Below are positions 13,037 through 19,400 of a DNA stretch of 64,000 bases, piece by piece. How positions within the stretch are numbered: the first letter of the stretch is position 1; each line of letters starts with the position of its first letter. Both the position numbers and the translations under genes were made by a program. Origin of the DNA: Fimbriimonadaceae bacterium (GTDB lineage: Bacteria; Armatimonadota; Fimbriimonadia; Fimbriimonadales; Fimbriimonadaceae); NCBI GenBank assembly GCA_022843485.1, contig JALHNM010000010.1:1-64000 (forward strand), read 5' to 3'. Under the pieces are notes generated by a model. That model was not told where the DNA came from. It was given only the letters and a program-made list of their open reading frames with translations, and did no database searches.

Positions 13037-13118
13037 GTGCTTGCGTCTTTCTCTTGAGCGTGTTCGAGAGCGTGATCGTGATCGTGTTCTTGTTCGTGTC
13101 GGCGTGTGCCGCGTTGTC

Positions 13119-13147
13119 GATGTAGTAGATCCGTAGTCGCGGGTCAA
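13119..13147 (-). promoter_or_regulatory. Candidate promoter for the SSB-like gene
   Basis: The minus strand reads TTGACC, a 17-base spacer and TACATC. The spacer contains GCGACTACG, the 9-bp motif repeated in other control regions. The site overlaps the end of the helicase region and would start a transcript about 75 bases before the SSB-like gene. Confidence 0.45.
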
Positions 13148-13156
13148 GCCCTTGTT

Positions 13157-16150
13157 TTAGGCCTTCTTGTGCTTTTTGATGGATCCACCGAACTCGTCGA
13201 TCACGATGTCGCAGTACGTGAGTTTTTGCGGTTGCCCGGTCATGTCCGTGAGCGCTCGCGCATCGCTGCACGCTCTCCAGAAACTGTCGAGCTGCTCCTG
13301 CACCGTCGTGATGAACTGATACACGACCTCGTCCGCTTCCTGGCCTTCTCGATGCGTGCGCCCGAGGAGCTGCTCCATCTGCTTGCCGTTCGGCGGTACA
13401 GACGTGATGAGGTTCGTCGACCACGCCTGAAGGTTGCGCCCCTCGCTGTTGCTGGCGATGCTCGCAATCATGGGTTGCTTGGGCGGGTGCTGCTCGATGA
13501 AGCGCTTGGTGATCGCGTCGATCCCGCCCTGGCCGTAGTACGGCACGCCCGTGCGCCGGGCGAGCTCGTGGCCGAACTCCGTGTGCTCGACCCACACGAT
13601 GCCGCCCTGCGTGTCCTTCGGGACCTCTTCGGCTTCGCCCTTCATCCAGCGGGCGCAGAAGTCCAGCGCTGCGGAGTCGAGCCACACCGCCTCCCGGTTC
13701 TTCTCGGGGTCGTAGAGCCCCTGCACCTCGCGCCACTGCTTGAGCGGCTCGCTGTCGTAGAGCCCCGCGTCGATCGCGTCCATCACCTGCTTGGGAGAGT
13801 CGAGGTGCGAGCGGTTCGTCTTCAAGATGGTCCGCATGTACGAAGACCACGCAGTGCGCTTCTCGCGCCAGACGTGCGGCGGGGCCGGGTTCCACCGATA
13901 GTAGAAGCCGAGCCCGACCGACCGCATGTGCCTCCACAGCTCGATGGCGTCGAGCAACGGCTCCCCGTCCGGGCGATCCCAGCGCTCGCGCAATCCTCGG
14001 ATTGCTTCGATGCTGGCCACGCTCTCGAGCATCAGCCGGATGTTCTCGACCCGGAGCGACGCGCCGATCATCGGCGAGGTCGTGGCGACCACACCCGGCG
14101 TCTCCATCACCCGGCGCATCACAGCGCGTCGCACCACGCCTAGGCCCTCGTCGTACGCGACGCGCGAGAGATGCTCCCGCTCCTCGGGCGTGCAGAACTG
14201 CACCAGCGCCCCGGGAGCCGTGCGCCCCTCGTCGTCCCGCTTCTGGTCCAGAGCCATGCTCCACGTGATGCCGTCCTCGAACGTCACGGGCAGCGGCGAC
14301 TTCGCGATCCGCGTGCCGTCCGCAGCTCGCGTCGGCCTCAGCGCCCACCGCAGCATGTGCGAGAAGTCCAGGATCGATCGCTTCATGATCGTGCCCGACA
14401 TCCCCACGAACACCACGTTCTCGTTCCCCTCGAGATACCGCTTCACGCGCTTCGTTACGGCTGCGGCGGGGTTTCGCAGGCGGTGGCAGTTGGAGACCAG
14501 CGTGTTGTCGGCAAAGTAGTTGTGGTCGGTGTCGACCTCGAGATCATACACCCAAGCACCTGCAGCACCACATCCCTCAGGTCCGTCCGCACTTGTTTGT
14601 TCGAGAATCTCAACACGTGCCACCCGAGCTGGTTCAAGATGCCAGTCTTGCGTTTGTCCAGGAACTTCCACTTGCGCGATTTGTGCGATGCGCCGTCGAT
14701 CTCGATCGCTATGCGCCGCTCCACATCCGCCAGATCCACCTTGTAGCACGTGGGTAGACTGGGCCCTGTCGCGCCCTTCGTGGAGATCGGATACTCCATA
14801 GGGCAGTGCCCGTTCAGCGCTTCGTGCAGCATCTTCTGCGGGACGGTCAGTTGCCCGTTGCCGCCCCTCGCCAAGAACGTCCTCCCTTTCAAGGCTTTGC
14901 TCATTTTGGCCAACACCCGGGGGTCCTTGGTGGGGTTGTTCAAACGCATCCTCTCGGAATGCCACGGTTGCGGTTTCCCCTTGAGCGCTTTGGATATCGC
15001 TGTGCTTCGCTTCTGCAGAGTTTCGACGGACGGTGGAGGGCGCGCCGCCGACGAGCAAGACGTGCTGCAATACTTGCGCGGTTTGTTCTTCTGCAACGAC
15101 GCCAAGACGCGGATCGTTTTGCCGCACTTCGGGCAAGCCGTCTCCGCTCGAGGTGCTTGTGGTCCACTCCTGCGCTGTTTCTCCTCGGGTCTGTTCTGAA
15201 TGGCCTTGCAAGCGCAGGCCAGCGTGCAGTGTGTGGGGGTTCGCTTCCCCCTCCGCACGACCCGTGCTTGCTTCCCGCACCCGGCGCAGGTGATCTCCAC
15301 GTAGTAGACATAGCGCACGTACATAGCCGCGTTCCGTCCAGATCTTGTGGTCTTCCGTGCAGGTCAACGTGCCGTGTGTGTGGTGCACGCGGACCAGCCG
15401 TTTGTGGGATTCCTTCTTGACGCGGCGGACTATCTTCCGCCAGTGCAATCCGCTCTCCCCTGCGGCAAGTACGTGCTTGCCGACCCCTTCGTCGACCACT
15501 CGCGCGATGGGCACCTGCCCCGCGTCCGTATGGACCAAGGTGCTGCCGGGGAAGCACTCGTCGCACACGAGCACGTCGGGCTGCGCCTCGTCGAGCATCT
15601 TCGCGTTCTGCGTCCTGCCGAGCTTCTCGTAGCTCTCCATGCGAACGCGCGGGATCAGCCAGTCGACCCGGTACTTCGCCGCCTCCCTGTGCGTCTTGTC
15701 GATCAGCTTCGCAGGCAGCAAGAGGAGCGGGCGCCGCGCCTCGAGCACCAGGAACGCCAGGAGCGAGGTCAGCGTCTTGCCCGCGCCCACGCTCGCCGAG
15801 AGGAGCAGCCCGCGGTTGTAGTACATCTCGAACAACGCGGCGACTTGGATCGGGCGCAAGGCCTGCTTGCCGTTCTGCTGCCGCAACCACGCCTCGAGCC
15901 GCAGCACGTGCAAGTACGGTCGCACCTGCGGGTACACGCCCAAGATCTGCTCGTCCGTGGCTTTGAGCGTGATCGCCCGGTACATCCACGCACGGACCTC
16001 GGCGGGCATCGGCGGAACTTCGGGATACGCGTCCTCCCACTTCCGCCTCGGCAACGCGGCGATGCGGCGCAGCTCCGCACTGTCGTCGACAGCACGGGCG
16101 CCGCCGAACGGCGTGTCCTTGTGGAATGGGTTTCCGCGCTTGCGAGCCAC
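13157..16150 (-). CDS. SF2/SNF2-type helicase interrupted by an intein
   Basis: The GTG at 16148-16150 (VARKRGNPF) follows GGAG by nine bases; a TTG eight codons earlier is the alternative. The 997-residue precursor has Walker A GAGKT at about 122-126, the motif II residues DE-CH split by an intein (residues 199-554), and C-terminal helicase motifs SEGRNLQ and LLGRTHREGQ. After splicing the helicase would be about 641 residues with an intact DECH box. Residues 51-88 form a helical module also found twice in the adjacent nuclease. It probably unwinds or remodels DNA in replication-recombination with that nuclease. Confidence 0.85.
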   Translation of the reverse strand: MARKRGNPFHKDTPFGGARAVDDSAELRRIAALPRRKWEDAYPEVPPMPAEVRAWMYRAITLKATDEQILGVYPQVRPYLHVLRLEAWLRQQNGKQALRPIQVAALFEMYYNRGLLLSASVGAGKTLTSLLAFLVLEARRPLLLLPAKLIDKTHREAAKYRVDWLIPRVRMESYEKLGRTQNAKMLDEAQPDVLVCDECFPGSTLVHTDAGQVPIARVVDEGVGKHVLAAGESGLHWRKIVRRVKKESHKRLVRVHHTHGTLTCTEDHKIWTERGYVRALCLLRGDHLRRVREASTGRAEGEANPHTLHAGLRLQGHSEQTRGETAQEWTTSTSSGDGLPEVRQNDPRLGVVAEEQTAQVLQHVLLVGGAPSTVRRNSAEAKHSDIQSAQGETATVAFREDAFEQPHQGPPGVGQNEQSLEREDVLGEGRQRATDRPAEDAARSAERALPYGVSDLHEGRDRAQSTHVLQGGSGGCGAAHSDRDRRRIAQIAQVEVPGQTQDWHLEPARVARVEILEQTSADGPEGCGAAGAWVYDLEVDTDHNYFADNTLVSNCHRLRNPAAAVTKRVKRYLEGNENVVFVGMSGTIMKRSILDFSHMLRWALRPTRAADGTRIAKSPLPVTFEDGITWSMALDQKRDDEGRTAPGALVQFCTPEEREHLSRVAYDEGLGVVRRAVMRRVMETPGVVATTSPMIGASLRVENIRLMLESVASIEAIRGLRERWDRPDGEPLLDAIELWRHMRSVGLGFYYRWNPAPPHVWREKRTAWSSYMRTILKTNRSHLDSPKQVMDAIDAGLYDSEPLKQWREVQGLYDPEKNREAVWLDSAALDFCARWMKGEAEEVPKDTQGGIVWVEHTEFGHELARRTGVPYYGQGGIDAITKRFIEQHPPKQPMIASIASNSEGRNLQAWSTNLITSVPPNGKQMEQLLGRTHREGQEADEVVYQFITTVQEQLDSFWRACSDARALTDMTGQPQKLTYCDIVIDEFGGSIKKHKKA
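14455..15324 (-). CDS. Vsr/DUF559-like homing endonuclease encoded out of frame inside the intein
   Basis: A 289-residue frame, shifted by one base from the helicase-intein frame, opens at an ATG inside the end of intein block B. It has two zinc knuckles (Cys13/16/33/37 and Cys64/67/86/90), NUMOD3-like repeats (ISKALKGK, MSKALKGR) and a nuclease domain with VDLAD (Asp197), IAIEIDGASH (Glu208, Asp210, His214) and Asp223, the EDxHD pattern of very-short-patch-repair-like homing enzymes. GGAA lies seven bases before the start. It would cut intein-free helicase genes and drive intein spread. The last codons overlap the C-terminal splicing block and motif II. Confidence 0.8.
   Translation of the reverse strand: MYVRYVYYVEITCAGCGKQARVVRRGKRTPTHCTLACACKAIQNRPEEKQRRSGPQAPRAETACPKCGKTIRVLASLQKNKPRKYCSTSCSSAARPPPSVETLQKRSTAISKALKGKPQPWHSERMRLNNPTKDPRVLAKMSKALKGRTFLARGGNGQLTVPQKMLHEALNGHCPMEYPISTKGATGPSLPTCYKVDLADVERRIAIEIDGASHKSRKWKFLDKRKTGILNQLGWHVLRFSNKQVRTDLRDVVLQVLGCMISRSTPTTTTLPTTRWSPTATACETPPQP
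14489..15556 (-). mobile_element. Intein in helicase motif II with dual-coding centre
   Basis: The helicase frame shows block A CFPGSTLVHTD (Cys1 codon 15554-15556), block B GTLTCTEDHKIW, then about 240 residues without any intein or endonuclease motif, then block F AWVYDLEVDTDHNYFADN and the end LVSN before Cys+1 (Asn codon 14489-14491). The penultimate residue is Ser rather than His, as in some natural inteins. The insertion splits the DECH box between Glu and Cys. The 240-residue centre is the wrong-frame reading of the endonuclease gene and happens to lack stops. Confidence 0.85.
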
Positions 16151-16174
16151 GTGTTCGTTCTCCGAGGACAGCAA

Positions 16175-16206
16175 AGCCCGGCCGACTCAACGAGCGCGGC
16201 CGGGCT
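16175..16206 (-). terminator. Possible attenuator or terminator
   Basis: Arms AGCCCGGCC and GGCCGGGCT with a 14-base loop lie between the nuclease stop and the helicase start; on the minus strand the stem is followed by TTTG only. The short T-run suggests partial termination or an RNA processing site. Confidence 0.45.
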
Positions 16207-16219
16207 CCAAAAGGACCGA

Positions 16220-18478
16220 TCAGTCCGCGCCGATCAGCTTCCGCAGGATGTCGCCGATCTTGTTGTGCGCGTCGAGGAGCTTGCGGATCTGCTCCACGCC
16301 GGAGAGAACCGGCTCGAGGGGGGGCGGGTCCCACATCTTCACGTCGGGCCCCTGGAGCGCGGTGTGCGTGGTGTTCGTGGCGGGGTCCCACGAGAGCTTC
16401 GCCTGCTCCGAGAGCTGCTGCGCGGGTGCCTGGGCTGCGGGCGCCATGCCCTTCGCGCGCATCTCGTTCCGCACCGTCGAGCGCAGGTTCACCTCGCGCA
16501 AGCCCTTCACGTCGATGTTGTGCTGCTTCGCGAGGTCCCTCAGCGCCTTGGCGTCCATCGCGTCGTACGCGTCGCCGCCCTCCTTGGGTGCCTTGCCGGG
16601 CGCAGGCGTGTTCGCGTCCGGCGTCGGCTGCGCGAGCTCCGGGAGCCCCGCGCTCTCCGGCGCGTTGATGCCCGTCGCCCGCTGCGGGCCGAACACCTCG
16701 AGCCGCAGCTCATCCAGGTACGGCCGCGCCGCCGTGTAGACGCCCAAGATCTGAGCGTCCGTCGCGCCCTGCTTCAGCGCGTAGAGGACCATCGCCTTCA
16801 ACTGCGGGTCGATCGGGGGCGGCGGCGTGGCCGGCACCGCGACGCGCATGTTGACCTCGTCGATCGTCCGCAAGTCCGCGCGCAGCTGCGTCAGCATCGG
16901 CGCGACCCACGACCACCGCTCCGCGATCTCCGCATTCGAGTGATTCGCGCGAATCGCGCCGATGATCGCCTCCCGGATCTCCTTGGGCCACGTCTCCGTG
17001 CTCGAGGGGTAGTGGTTCTGCGCGGGCGGCGAGGGCGGTGCTTGCGGCGGGGCAGGAGGAGCAGGCGGCGCCGGGGGGGAGAGACGAGCCCAAGTCTCCT
17101 CCGTGTTCGGCAGGAACTGCGGAGCCGCGACATCGCCGTTCCACACCCAGGCGGGGTCCTGGTGCACCTGCCAGGGCGCCGGCAGCGTTCGGACGGGCGG
17201 TGCCTGGGGCGGCTGGGGCGGCTGGGGCGCGGCCACGACCTGGAAGGTCTGCGAGTGCGGAGGCACCGTCTGCGACTGCGGAGGGACCGCGTGCGTGTTC
17301 AGCTCGAACCCGTTCGGCGTCGGCTGCAGCTGCGGCCAGCTCTGCGTCGGCTGCTGGGGCGGGAGCGTGTGCGGATCCCAGAAGCTCGGCTGCGCGACTG
17401 GGGGTGGCGCGCCGAATCCGTTCTGCGGTGCGGGGAAGGGCGAGGGCGCCCCGAACGGATGCAGCGGTTGCTGCATCGGCATCGCACCGAGCAACGGCAC
17501 CAGCCCTCCCTGCACCGGCGGCGGGGGTGCCGCCTGCACATGCCCCGAACTCAACGCCTGCTTCGTCGCCTCGATCTTCGCCATCAAATCTTCACTCGTG
17601 CTCATGCTTGCCTCCATCTGCTGCTGTGCCGTCATCCGGCACGGTTTGTTCTTGAACGGGCACCCGCCGTACGCTCCGCACGCGGACACATCCTTGGGCA
17701 TCTGATCGCCCCGCATCCCCAGCGCCTTCGCGCGCAAGGGCCCGACGATCGCCAGATCCTCCCACTTCGAGAGCTCGCGAATCACGTGCTCCTTCGTCAC
17801 CGTCTGGAACGAGACCTCGCTCTTGTACGGCTTGCTCGTCTTGTAGTAGACCCACCGAAGGTTCACTCGAGGAGCCGTCGGGTTCCTCGTGAACGCCACG
17901 TGCGCATAGACGAGCGCCTGCACGTCGTAGAGCAGATCGTCCGGCAGCTTCCGATACCCGAGATTGCTCGTCGTCTTGTGATCGAGCACCTCGGGGATGA
18001 ACACCGCCCGCCCGAGCACCTGCGAGCCATCGGGCAGCGTGTAGACGACGGGCCCCATGCCGTGCTGCTCGTGCTCCTCGCGCTGGTACGACGAGTCGAT
18101 GAAGCCGCGCCACACGGCGGGATAGCGCGTCAGGAACGGGACCGTGAAGCCGCCCTCGACATCGTGGTGCGGCCCGGGCGGCGGAAGATGGTGCAGGCCC
18201 GACTCGGCGATCTTGCCGATCTCGTAGACCTTGTTCCCGATGACGAGCACCTCGTCCCGGTTCGGCGGAATGCCCTTGCTCAACCACGACTCGAGCACCT
18301 CGTGTGTGCGCGTCCCGGCCCTCGCCGACGCGTGCTGCGGCGTCGGCAAGCCGTCGAGGTACTGATACCCCCACTTCGCCGGGCACGAGTGGAACGTGTC
18401 GAGCTGGCTCGCACTCATCCGCACCATGGGCGGCGCGGGCACGTGACTGCCCGCGAGGACTGGCAGGTGAACGCTCAC
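16220..18478 (-). CDS. Cas4/RecB-like nuclease fused to Pro-rich linker and DNA-binding-like C-terminus
   Basis: The N-terminal 290 residues are a PD-(D/E)XK nuclease: FHSCPAKW (Cys32), GTRTHE (His59), RGFID (Asp128), VLDHKTT (Asp166, Lys168), QALVYAH, and a final CGAYGGCPFKNKPC giving Cys267/273/280, which with Cys32 could hold a 4Fe-4S cluster. Residues 315-495 are Pro/Gln-rich and disordered. Residues 500-537 and 559-596 are two copies of a helical module shared with the helicase, and 640-675 resemble a SAP DNA-binding motif. At 752 residues it is far longer than ordinary Cas4. The GTG start overlaps the upstream stop. Confidence 0.75.
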   Translation of the reverse strand: MSVHLPVLAGSHVPAPPMVRMSASQLDTFHSCPAKWGYQYLDGLPTPQHASARAGTRTHEVLESWLSKGIPPNRDEVLVIGNKVYEIGKIAESGLHHLPPPGPHHDVEGGFTVPFLTRYPAVWRGFIDSSYQREEHEQHGMGPVVYTLPDGSQVLGRAVFIPEVLDHKTTSNLGYRKLPDDLLYDVQALVYAHVAFTRNPTAPRVNLRWVYYKTSKPYKSEVSFQTVTKEHVIRELSKWEDLAIVGPLRAKALGMRGDQMPKDVSACGAYGGCPFKNKPCRMTAQQQMEASMSTSEDLMAKIEATKQALSSGHVQAAPPPPVQGGLVPLLGAMPMQQPLHPFGAPSPFPAPQNGFGAPPPVAQPSFWDPHTLPPQQPTQSWPQLQPTPNGFELNTHAVPPQSQTVPPHSQTFQVVAAPQPPQPPQAPPVRTLPAPWQVHQDPAWVWNGDVAAPQFLPNTEETWARLSPPAPPAPPAPPQAPPSPPAQNHYPSSTETWPKEIREAIIGAIRANHSNAEIAERWSWVAPMLTQLRADLRTIDEVNMRVAVPATPPPPIDPQLKAMVLYALKQGATDAQILGVYTAARPYLDELRLEVFGPQRATGINAPESAGLPELAQPTPDANTPAPGKAPKEGGDAYDAMDAKALRDLAKQHNIDVKGLREVNLRSTVRNEMRAKGMAPAAQAPAQQLSEQAKLSWDPATNTTHTALQGPDVKMWDPPPLEPVLSGVEQIRKLLDAHNKIGDILRKLIGAD

Positions 18479-18831
18479 GTGGCGAGGACCCAGTCCTCCG
18501 CGAGCAGATCCGTCTGCGACGCGAGCCAGGGCACGAACCCGTTGTCCGCCGTCTTCATGCCGATGAACGACATGAGCCTCGGCGAGTTCGCGACGCGGTC
18601 CTCCCCTTTCGGGCCTGCCCCGAGCCAGTCTCGCATCGCCGTGATCCCCGCTGCCACCAGCTTCTCAGAAGGCGTGATTCGCAGGCTGACGAGCGCGCTG
18701 GCCTGCGCGTTGCTGTCCGCGAGGCTCCCGTGCGGCACGACGAGCACCAGCCACATGCCCTTGCCGTTCCAGCCCTCGCGGGCGATCCGTTCGCCGCTCT
18801 TGAGCGCGGCGAGTGCTTCTCCGAAGTTCAT
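18475..18831 (-). CDS. tad2: Tad2-like anti-Thoeris protein (DUF2829)
   Basis: The 118-residue protein begins MNFGEALAALKSGERIAREG with GWNGKGMWL, and ends MKTADNGFVPWLASQTD plus LLAEDWVLAT. These are the hallmarks of DUF2829. Members of this family (Tad2) are known to bind and sequester the nucleotide signal made by Thoeris defence. The gene overlaps both neighbours by four bases, so it is made with the replication proteins, early in infection. The family call is strong; activity against a specific Thoeris type is inferred. Confidence 0.8.
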   Translation of the reverse strand: MNFGEALAALKSGERIAREGWNGKGMWLVLVVPHGSLADSNAQASALVSLRITPSEKLVAAGITAMRDWLGAGPKGEDRVANSPRLMSFIGMKTADNGFVPWLASQTDLLAEDWVLAT

Positions 18832-19400
18832 GTTCCAGTCCTCTTCTCGCGCAAGAAGAGCGCGTGCTCGGCGATCTGGTCCTTGTAGATCCAGTCTTCG
18901 ATCCGCACCCGCCGCTCGTCGAGGTACTGCGCGCTCGTCGCGGGCGTCATGATGCGCAGTGCGTTGTCTGCACCAGAGCCGGAGTTGTGGGTGAGGATCA
19001 CGCGGATCGCGTTCTCGAGCCAGGCCACGTCCATGTACTTCCTGTGAATCAGGCGCCGCGTGCGGCCCACGTCCTTCAGGAAGCGGTCAGCCTCTTCCGC
19101 GCCGTCTCCCAACACGAGCGGGCAGTGGATCAAGTCCCCGTTGAAGGCCCGCGCGACCAGATGCAGACCGACGGGGTGCTCGGACCACAGCCGCGTCAAG
19201 CCCCGCCCCAGCAGCGTCTTGCCCGTACCCGGCGGCCCGTTGAGAACGAGGACGCGGTCCGCCTTCTCGAGGTTCGTGATGTTCGCGATCCAGTTCTCGA
19301 GCTGCGGGTACTGCGACCCCGCCATCAGGCGGAGCCACGCGTCGATTTCCGCGTGCTGCTTGGCCTGCACCGGACGGAGCTTGTTCTTGAAGACTGCCAT
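18828..19400 (-). CDS. Truncated paralogue of the SF3-type ATPase, Walker B altered
   Basis: The 190 residues align with residues about 288-500 of the helicase at 19673-21616 (shared IDxWLRLMAG, NGPPGTGKTLL, HCPLVLGD, IAEHALFLRE). Walker A is intact at 55-62. Walker B reads LVLGDGAEE instead of LVFGDEVAP, so the catalytic Glu is lost. It may bind but not efficiently hydrolyse ATP, and could act as a regulatory subunit or inhibitor of the main helicase. GAGAGGGTGAAC precedes the ATG at 19398-19400. Confidence 0.75.
   Translation of the reverse strand: MAVFKNKLRPVQAKQHAEIDAWLRLMAGSQYPQLENWIANITNLEKADRVLVLNGPPGTGKTLLGRGLTRLWSEHPVGLHLVARAFNGDLIHCPLVLGDGAEEADRFLKDVGRTRRLIHRKYMDVAWLENAIRVILTHNSGSGADNALRIMTPATSAQYLDERRVRIEDWIYKDQIAEHALFLREKRTGT

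Follow-up and report, generated by a model that had tools for sequence, protein, structure and literature searches.

A helicase intein of a Fimbriimonadaceae contig with a predicted homing endonuclease encoded in its +1 frame

How can one segment of DNA stay readable in two frames, one running through a helicase and its intein, the other encoding a homing endonuclease (HEN)? The question is raised by a helicase gene in the first 64,000 nucleotides of contig JALHNM010000010.1 (assembly GCA_022843485.1) of a Fimbriimonadaceae bacterium, the stretch referred to here as the window. An earlier note on this DNA, made from the letters alone, had proposed that the centre of the intein is dual-coding. 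The computational analysis reported here makes it very probable that the locus is a mobile dual-coding intein, in which a cis-splicing precursor is combined with an independently initiated HEN. In the mechanism that we infer, translation of the whole gene in the helicase frame would yield a precursor, from which the intein, composed of N- and C-terminal Hint halves and a disordered, stop-free linker, would excise itself and so restore the helicase DECH motif II. A second, free-standing product of the same mRNA, a Vsr/EDxHD-type endonuclease that carries zinc clusters, would arise by initiation inside the gene, in the +1 frame. This enzyme would cut intein-free alleles at the sequence coding for Walker B/motif II, and repair would copy the element in (homing). 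Selection would keep stops out of the helicase frame across the HEN gene, because a stop would remove the C-terminal half of the helicase, and the phase would be fixed by the DNA that the last strand and helix of the HEN (GWxVLRFxN...) share with the C-terminal intein strand (RVxSVEI) and block F.

The host gene (13157..16174, minus strand, as are all window features below unless stated) encodes an SF2/SNF2-type phage helicase of 1005 aa, with a TTG start as listed and an uncertain true start, and matches the PHROG DNA helicase (2e-21) and DEAD (1e-4) profiles. The N-extein (15557..16174) carries Walker A GAGKT at 15773-15787 and ends with ...VCDE of motif II; the C-extein (13157..14488) starts with CHRLRN and contains the helicase C-terminal motifs. 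Between them, intein profiles, motifs and an AlphaFold2 (AF2) model place a predicted intein of 356 aa (14489..15556, helicase aa 207-562). The claim that the helicase frame is stop-free and carries intein blocks A, B and F and Asn/Cys+1 was confirmed: the list of open reading frames (ORFs) gives zero internal stops, the motifs are block A CFPGST, block B CTEDH (15335..15373), block F VYDLEV and C-terminal LVSN|C(HR), and NCBIfam returns intein_Cterm (E=1.3e-4) and intein_Nterm (E=1.9e-4). The residues of a class 1 cis-splicing intein are all present (C1, T-E-D-H as TxxH, N356 and extein C+1), and the insertion is in frame within a conserved motif, at DE|CH of Walker B/motif II. Since it follows ...VCDE and ends with LVSN|CHR, splicing would restore DECH. 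In the AF2 model the halves (1-95 and 307-356) reach a predicted local distance difference test (pLDDT) score of ~95, the linker is disordered at ~46, and Foldseek finds Hint-fold matches to the Mtu RecA, Spl DnaX and Ssp DnaB inteins. In hydropathy the linker differs little from its shuffles, on the hydrophilic side (z -1.3), and this was not used as evidence. By its residues and its modelled fold, the window intein would be expected to splice itself out.

The nested ORF (14455..15324, 289 aa) is offset from the helicase frame by 850 nt (850 mod 3 = 1) and matches DUF559 (E=3e-12), in agreement with the proposed 289-residue Vsr/DUF559 endonuclease one base out of frame. The two zinc knuckles that had been noticed correspond to two Cys4 clusters of the pattern C-x2-C...C-x3-C, namely C13 C16 C33 C37 (15214..15288) and C64 C67 C86 C90 (15055..15135), the latter nearly invariant in the family. 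In the catalytic core (14599..14736), D197, E208, D210, H214, D223, W235, R239 and N242 are invariant in 45 homologues. The AF2 core has a pLDDT of ~97 and its top Foldseek match is the catalytic domain of I-Bth0305I (profile comparison E=0.005); sequence and model together indicate a PD-(D/E)xK-like fold with the conserved acidic and His residues of the Vsr/EDxHD group. The start had been placed inside block B, but the ATG lies directly 3' of it, within RGYVRAL. As stated earlier, the end of the ORF overlaps block F and the DECH box, but the conserved HEN stops near residue 262 (14539) and the last ~27 codons are unconserved read-through.

A tblastn search with the HEN detected relatives in 40 sequenced phages, and in the 30 matches listed the gene lying over the HEN carries the annotation helicase, P-loop NTPase or unknown (coil-containing) protein. 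Ten loci were read, from phi673, CP-T1, Rostov M3, Vibrio lentus phages, K391, Vibrio crassostreae phages and Pseudomonas MR14 (GC 0.43-0.60): in each, the HEN is in +1 and the helicase coding sequence is without a stop, against 15-24 stops in the third frame. The public phage records examined annotate the helicase frame and not the nuclease. The family was then extended by scans of IMG/VR and GTDB genomes. A viral scan with the window HEN as single sequence gave no match, and an alignment of the phage relatives was needed as the viral query. Resemblance to the HEN, and not an open host frame, decided which loci were taken. The queries of the initial scans came from dual-coding members, and to offset this a further scan was started from a free-standing (L076) and a split (L113) form among others. 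Each scan covers the best 80 of about 260-380 relatives; how frequent split and free forms are among more distant members lies outside these counts. Among the 202 distinct HEN loci, 190 have a contiguous intein frame with the HEN in +1, 3 are open but cut by a contig end, 5 are broken and 4 are free-standing. The 190 contiguous loci (GC 0.28-0.65) fall into 172, 159 and 34 clusters at 90, 70 and 50% identity, and their 117.6 kb hold 0 stops in the host frame and 3,254 in the third frame. Cys1, the C-terminal Asn and Cys/Ser+1 are present in 108/108 parsed inteins, T/SxxH in 99. The insertion sites lie in or beside Walker B/motif II, mostly of helicases; L036 and L052, the two examined, are dual-coding inteins at Walker B of DnaX-type clamp-loader genes, and the element appears to have spread beyond helicases.

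Is the linker meaningless, as the earlier note had put it? Frame-specific dN/dS, the check it had suggested, gives a divided answer. In close pairs, the linker (14627..15283) is neutral in the host frame (omega_host 0.90, 0.62-1.51, and 1.22, 0.92-1.59) and under purifying selection in the HEN frame (omega_HEN 0.22, 0.18-0.26), with stop-creating changes in the helicase frame depleted to 0.18x. Seven 'stop-creating' changes in diverged pairs are an artefact of site-by-site scoring, the actual frames being open. The C-terminal overlap is constrained in both frames (omega_host 0.40, 0.16-0.91; omega_HEN 0.16), although few sites are available. A column test on 92 representatives, in which host-frame residues were conditioned on the HEN amino acids, showed that a clear excess in the linker is limited to Gln/Arg positions where a stop is avoided (opposite HEN Tyr-Lys, for instance, Gln reaches 91% vs 51%); in the last ~35 columns it appears at R-V-x-S-V-E, D/G and Y-N...E-V, that is, at the intein strand and block F. 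The description thus holds for the middle ~200 codons and fails for the C-terminal ~35; stop avoidance runs throughout and amino-acid constraint in both frames is confined to the end. There, HEN GWxVLRFxN and intein RVxSVEI are encoded by the same DNA; in this part of the window (14489..14626), the helicase frame encodes the intein strand RVARVEILEQ at 14597-14626 and block F/G at 14489-14551, and the +1 frame encodes HEN GWHVLRFSN.... The overlap may be what fixes the phase of the HEN, as suggested by three split loci (L113, L241 and L250) that retain both overlap and phase; common descent alone would also yield a single HEN phase.

That the open helicase frame is a high-GC accident, with the HEN alone real and the intein split or dead, is extremely unlikely. 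Long spurious ORFs are common in the GC-rich window (for example 1201 aa at 15347-18952, plus strand), and when synonymous codons were shuffled with the HEN protein kept and host-frame stops counted, the window frame stayed open in 0.4% of 20,000 shuffles (P=0.004; 4.8 stops expected), so that the window sequence by itself is suggestive and the homologues settle the matter. Across 119 loci the same null expects 1,165 host-frame stops and 52 were observed. Of these, 51 fall in two loci that serve as built-in negative controls: free-standing L076 has 28 (27.1 expected) and split L113 has 23 (26.6 expected). In chromosomal DUF559 genes taken as controls, the equivalent frame contains the usual number of stops. 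The 58 loci with a HEN GC below 0.40 (down to 0.28) contain 0 stops vs roughly 10 expected each, and the splice residues are intact, contrary to a dead intein. The census and the shuffle null refute the accident, and the double reading in about 190 phage and bacterial loci is conserved. A fractured gene, in which the HEN is a free-standing gene between the halves of a trans-splicing split intein, is very unlikely for the window. Such a form exists in the family: in L113, L241 and L250, an AT-rich, truly split group, a stop directly after the N half and 15-26 linker stops precede a separate C-half ORF that starts inside a HEN gene of the same family and +1 phase. Only in these three are the halves on separate ORFs; the window frame is unbroken, as in 190/202 loci, and selection acts against stops, for which trans-splicing would give no reason. 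Disruption of the linker frame with the splicing halves kept, which had been named beforehand as the outcome that would speak against double coding, was seen in just 5/202 loci, all in the same +1 phase: these three, with many stops, and two with one stop. In each of the latter (L286 2584-3199 and L027 3021-3657), a single intein-frame stop interrupts a dual-coding intein that is intact in all other respects, through recent breakage or sequencing error. Nor is a transition between split and contiguous inteins, which had also been considered, supported as the general state in a family so stable (190/202 loci, 34 clusters at 50% identity). In the HEN tree, in which one free-standing and one split form were placed, L076 (free-standing) is nested among dual-coding members with a support of 96, and L113 (split) also falls among them, weakly supported. 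The dual-coding state looks old and the free form L076 derived. In L076 (3042-5308), an uninterrupted helicase (LIIDEAH) follows immediately downstream of the family HEN, and the nuclease gives the impression of having left its intein.

The remaining two alternatives concern how the HEN is made and how the insert is removed. Programmed +1 ribosomal frameshifting would produce the HEN as an IntN-HEN fusion with no internal initiation. It would agree with a HEN that is always in +1 and with the quarter of starts that miss a clear Shine-Dalgarno (SD) sequence, but it is improbable in view of the SD enrichment at the conserved starts: an SD of at least 5 nt occurs at 48% of family HEN starts vs 17% in matched background, one of at least 6 nt at 26% vs 6%, several are near-consensus (AAAGGAGGTATATAAATG in L096, AAGGAGG in L073), and the start codon is ATG in 94/107. 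Internal initiation is therefore the favoured, yet unproven, route. An RNA-level explanation, a group I or II intron with an intron ORF, would fit the occurrence of HENs of this class in introns (I-Bth0305I), but it has next to no chance here; it was rejected upon the lack of any Rfam match to E=1 within 13100-16600, and the intein residues and Hint fold are present.

Support for the mobility of the dual-coding intein comes from intein-free alleles, which had been proposed as a check and were found in phi674, in Vibrio phages and in distant relatives of the window helicase. The Corynebacterium glutamicum phages phi673 and phi674 represent a natural intein-plus/minus helicase pair, and the putative intein in the phi673 helicase and its absence from phi674 were already noted in 2018 (PMC6132909). 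The phi673 intein occupies 906 nt at a DE|VHH site, and the empty phi674 helicase differs from the spliced phi673 gene at 17/1605 nt. The +1 codon is TGT (Cys) in the invaded allele and GTG (Val) in the empty one, which is consistent with co-conversion of the +1 residue. Presence and absence of the intein together with the changed +1 codon are only an indirect sign of the predicted site-specific cleavage of the empty allele by the HEN. In close Vibrio phages, a single site is found empty (DECHH, DEAHH), occupied by a 162-aa mini-intein (K453), or dual-coding. The mini-intein of Vibrio phage K453 (L182 2104-4224) is located at DE|CHH and is devoid of an endonuclease. In L175 (650-4007), a relative of the window helicase, Walker B is free of an intein, but two inteins appear to sit elsewhere: the shorter interrupts Walker A (GK|A...N|T), and the longer lies ahead of LGRTHR (Q|C...N|C).

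Several observations weigh against a splicing, mobile and internally initiated element in the window. On the window helicase, the Pfam intein model stays below its cutoff. The residue before the C-terminal Asn of the intein is Ser in place of His, as it is in 18/108 parsed inteins. The SD upstream of the window HEN ATG is weak, a 3-nt match only, so that internal initiation in this copy is argued from the family; in the family, 25% of HEN starts have no SD of at least 4 nt, and other start routes (coupled, leaderless, frameshift) are therefore possible. The empty relatives of the window helicase (L173, L174 and L176) are only 36-44% identical, and the case for homing of the window copy is indirect for this reason. 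With these points considered, a cis-splicing precursor with a separate nuclease is still probably right, given the computed anatomy and the family.

Phage-like genes surround the helicase in the window and encode DNA polymerase A, a DNA methyltransferase, a PD-(D/E)XK nuclease, a DUF5906 protein and an M23 peptidase. The antisense frame at 15347-18952 (plus strand) spans the helicase and the nuclease gene; it is GC-driven and probably not a gene.

Fractured genes, in which a Vsr-like HEN gene lies between the halves of a split intein, were reportedly described by Dassa and colleagues in 2009. The window element shares with them a phage replication or repair gene as host and intein halves that flank a Vsr-like HEN, and L113, L241 and L250 resemble that form; its intein frame, however, is contiguous and selected open, and its HEN has a fixed +1 frame and a bifunctional C-terminal overlap. 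Like classical full-length inteins (Mtu RecA, PI-SceI), it has a Hint domain and a HEN between blocks B and F, but the endonuclease of textbook inteins is part of the intein, fused in frame (PMC3943268), whereas here it is out of frame. The modelled HEN shares its catalytic fold with I-Bth0305I, an EDxHD/Vsr-type homing endonuclease (PDB 3r3p; PMC3943268), which its PDB name ('mobile intron protein') links to an intron and for which an overlap with an intein frame is not known. The ShiLan domain of Mycobacterium phages is likewise a phage mobile insert with an open host frame and a HEN hidden in another frame, but it combines an HNH nuclease in the third frame with a methylase host and no detected splicing domain (Arsenault et al., 2025; PMC11855218), in contrast to the DUF559/Vsr nuclease, intact intein domain and +1 frame of the window. 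The phi673 helicase intein (PMC6132909) is a member of the dual-coding family, and the passage on it makes no mention of an out-of-frame HEN. No description of an out-of-frame HEN in an intein was found in the literature searched, which did not cover the fractured-gene paper or a preprint on the 'non-canonical architecture' of actinobacteriophage inteins (doi 10.1101/2025.01.02.630785), cited for overlapping frames in PMC11855218, that may describe related cases.

We lean towards a widespread, undescribed class of mobile inteins in which the HEN is always in +1, its phase is locked by shared DNA, and split and free-standing forms are derived. In about 190 phage and metagenome-assembled genome loci, readability of the intein is kept by selection with the endonuclease out of frame, giving a large overlapping-gene family in which a neutral part adjoins a bifunctional part. 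Natural test pairs are offered by phi673/phi674 of C. glutamicum and by the empty, mini-intein and dual-coding alleles at one Vibrio phage site, and the family concretely connects inteins in contiguous and in split form with homing genes that stand alone.
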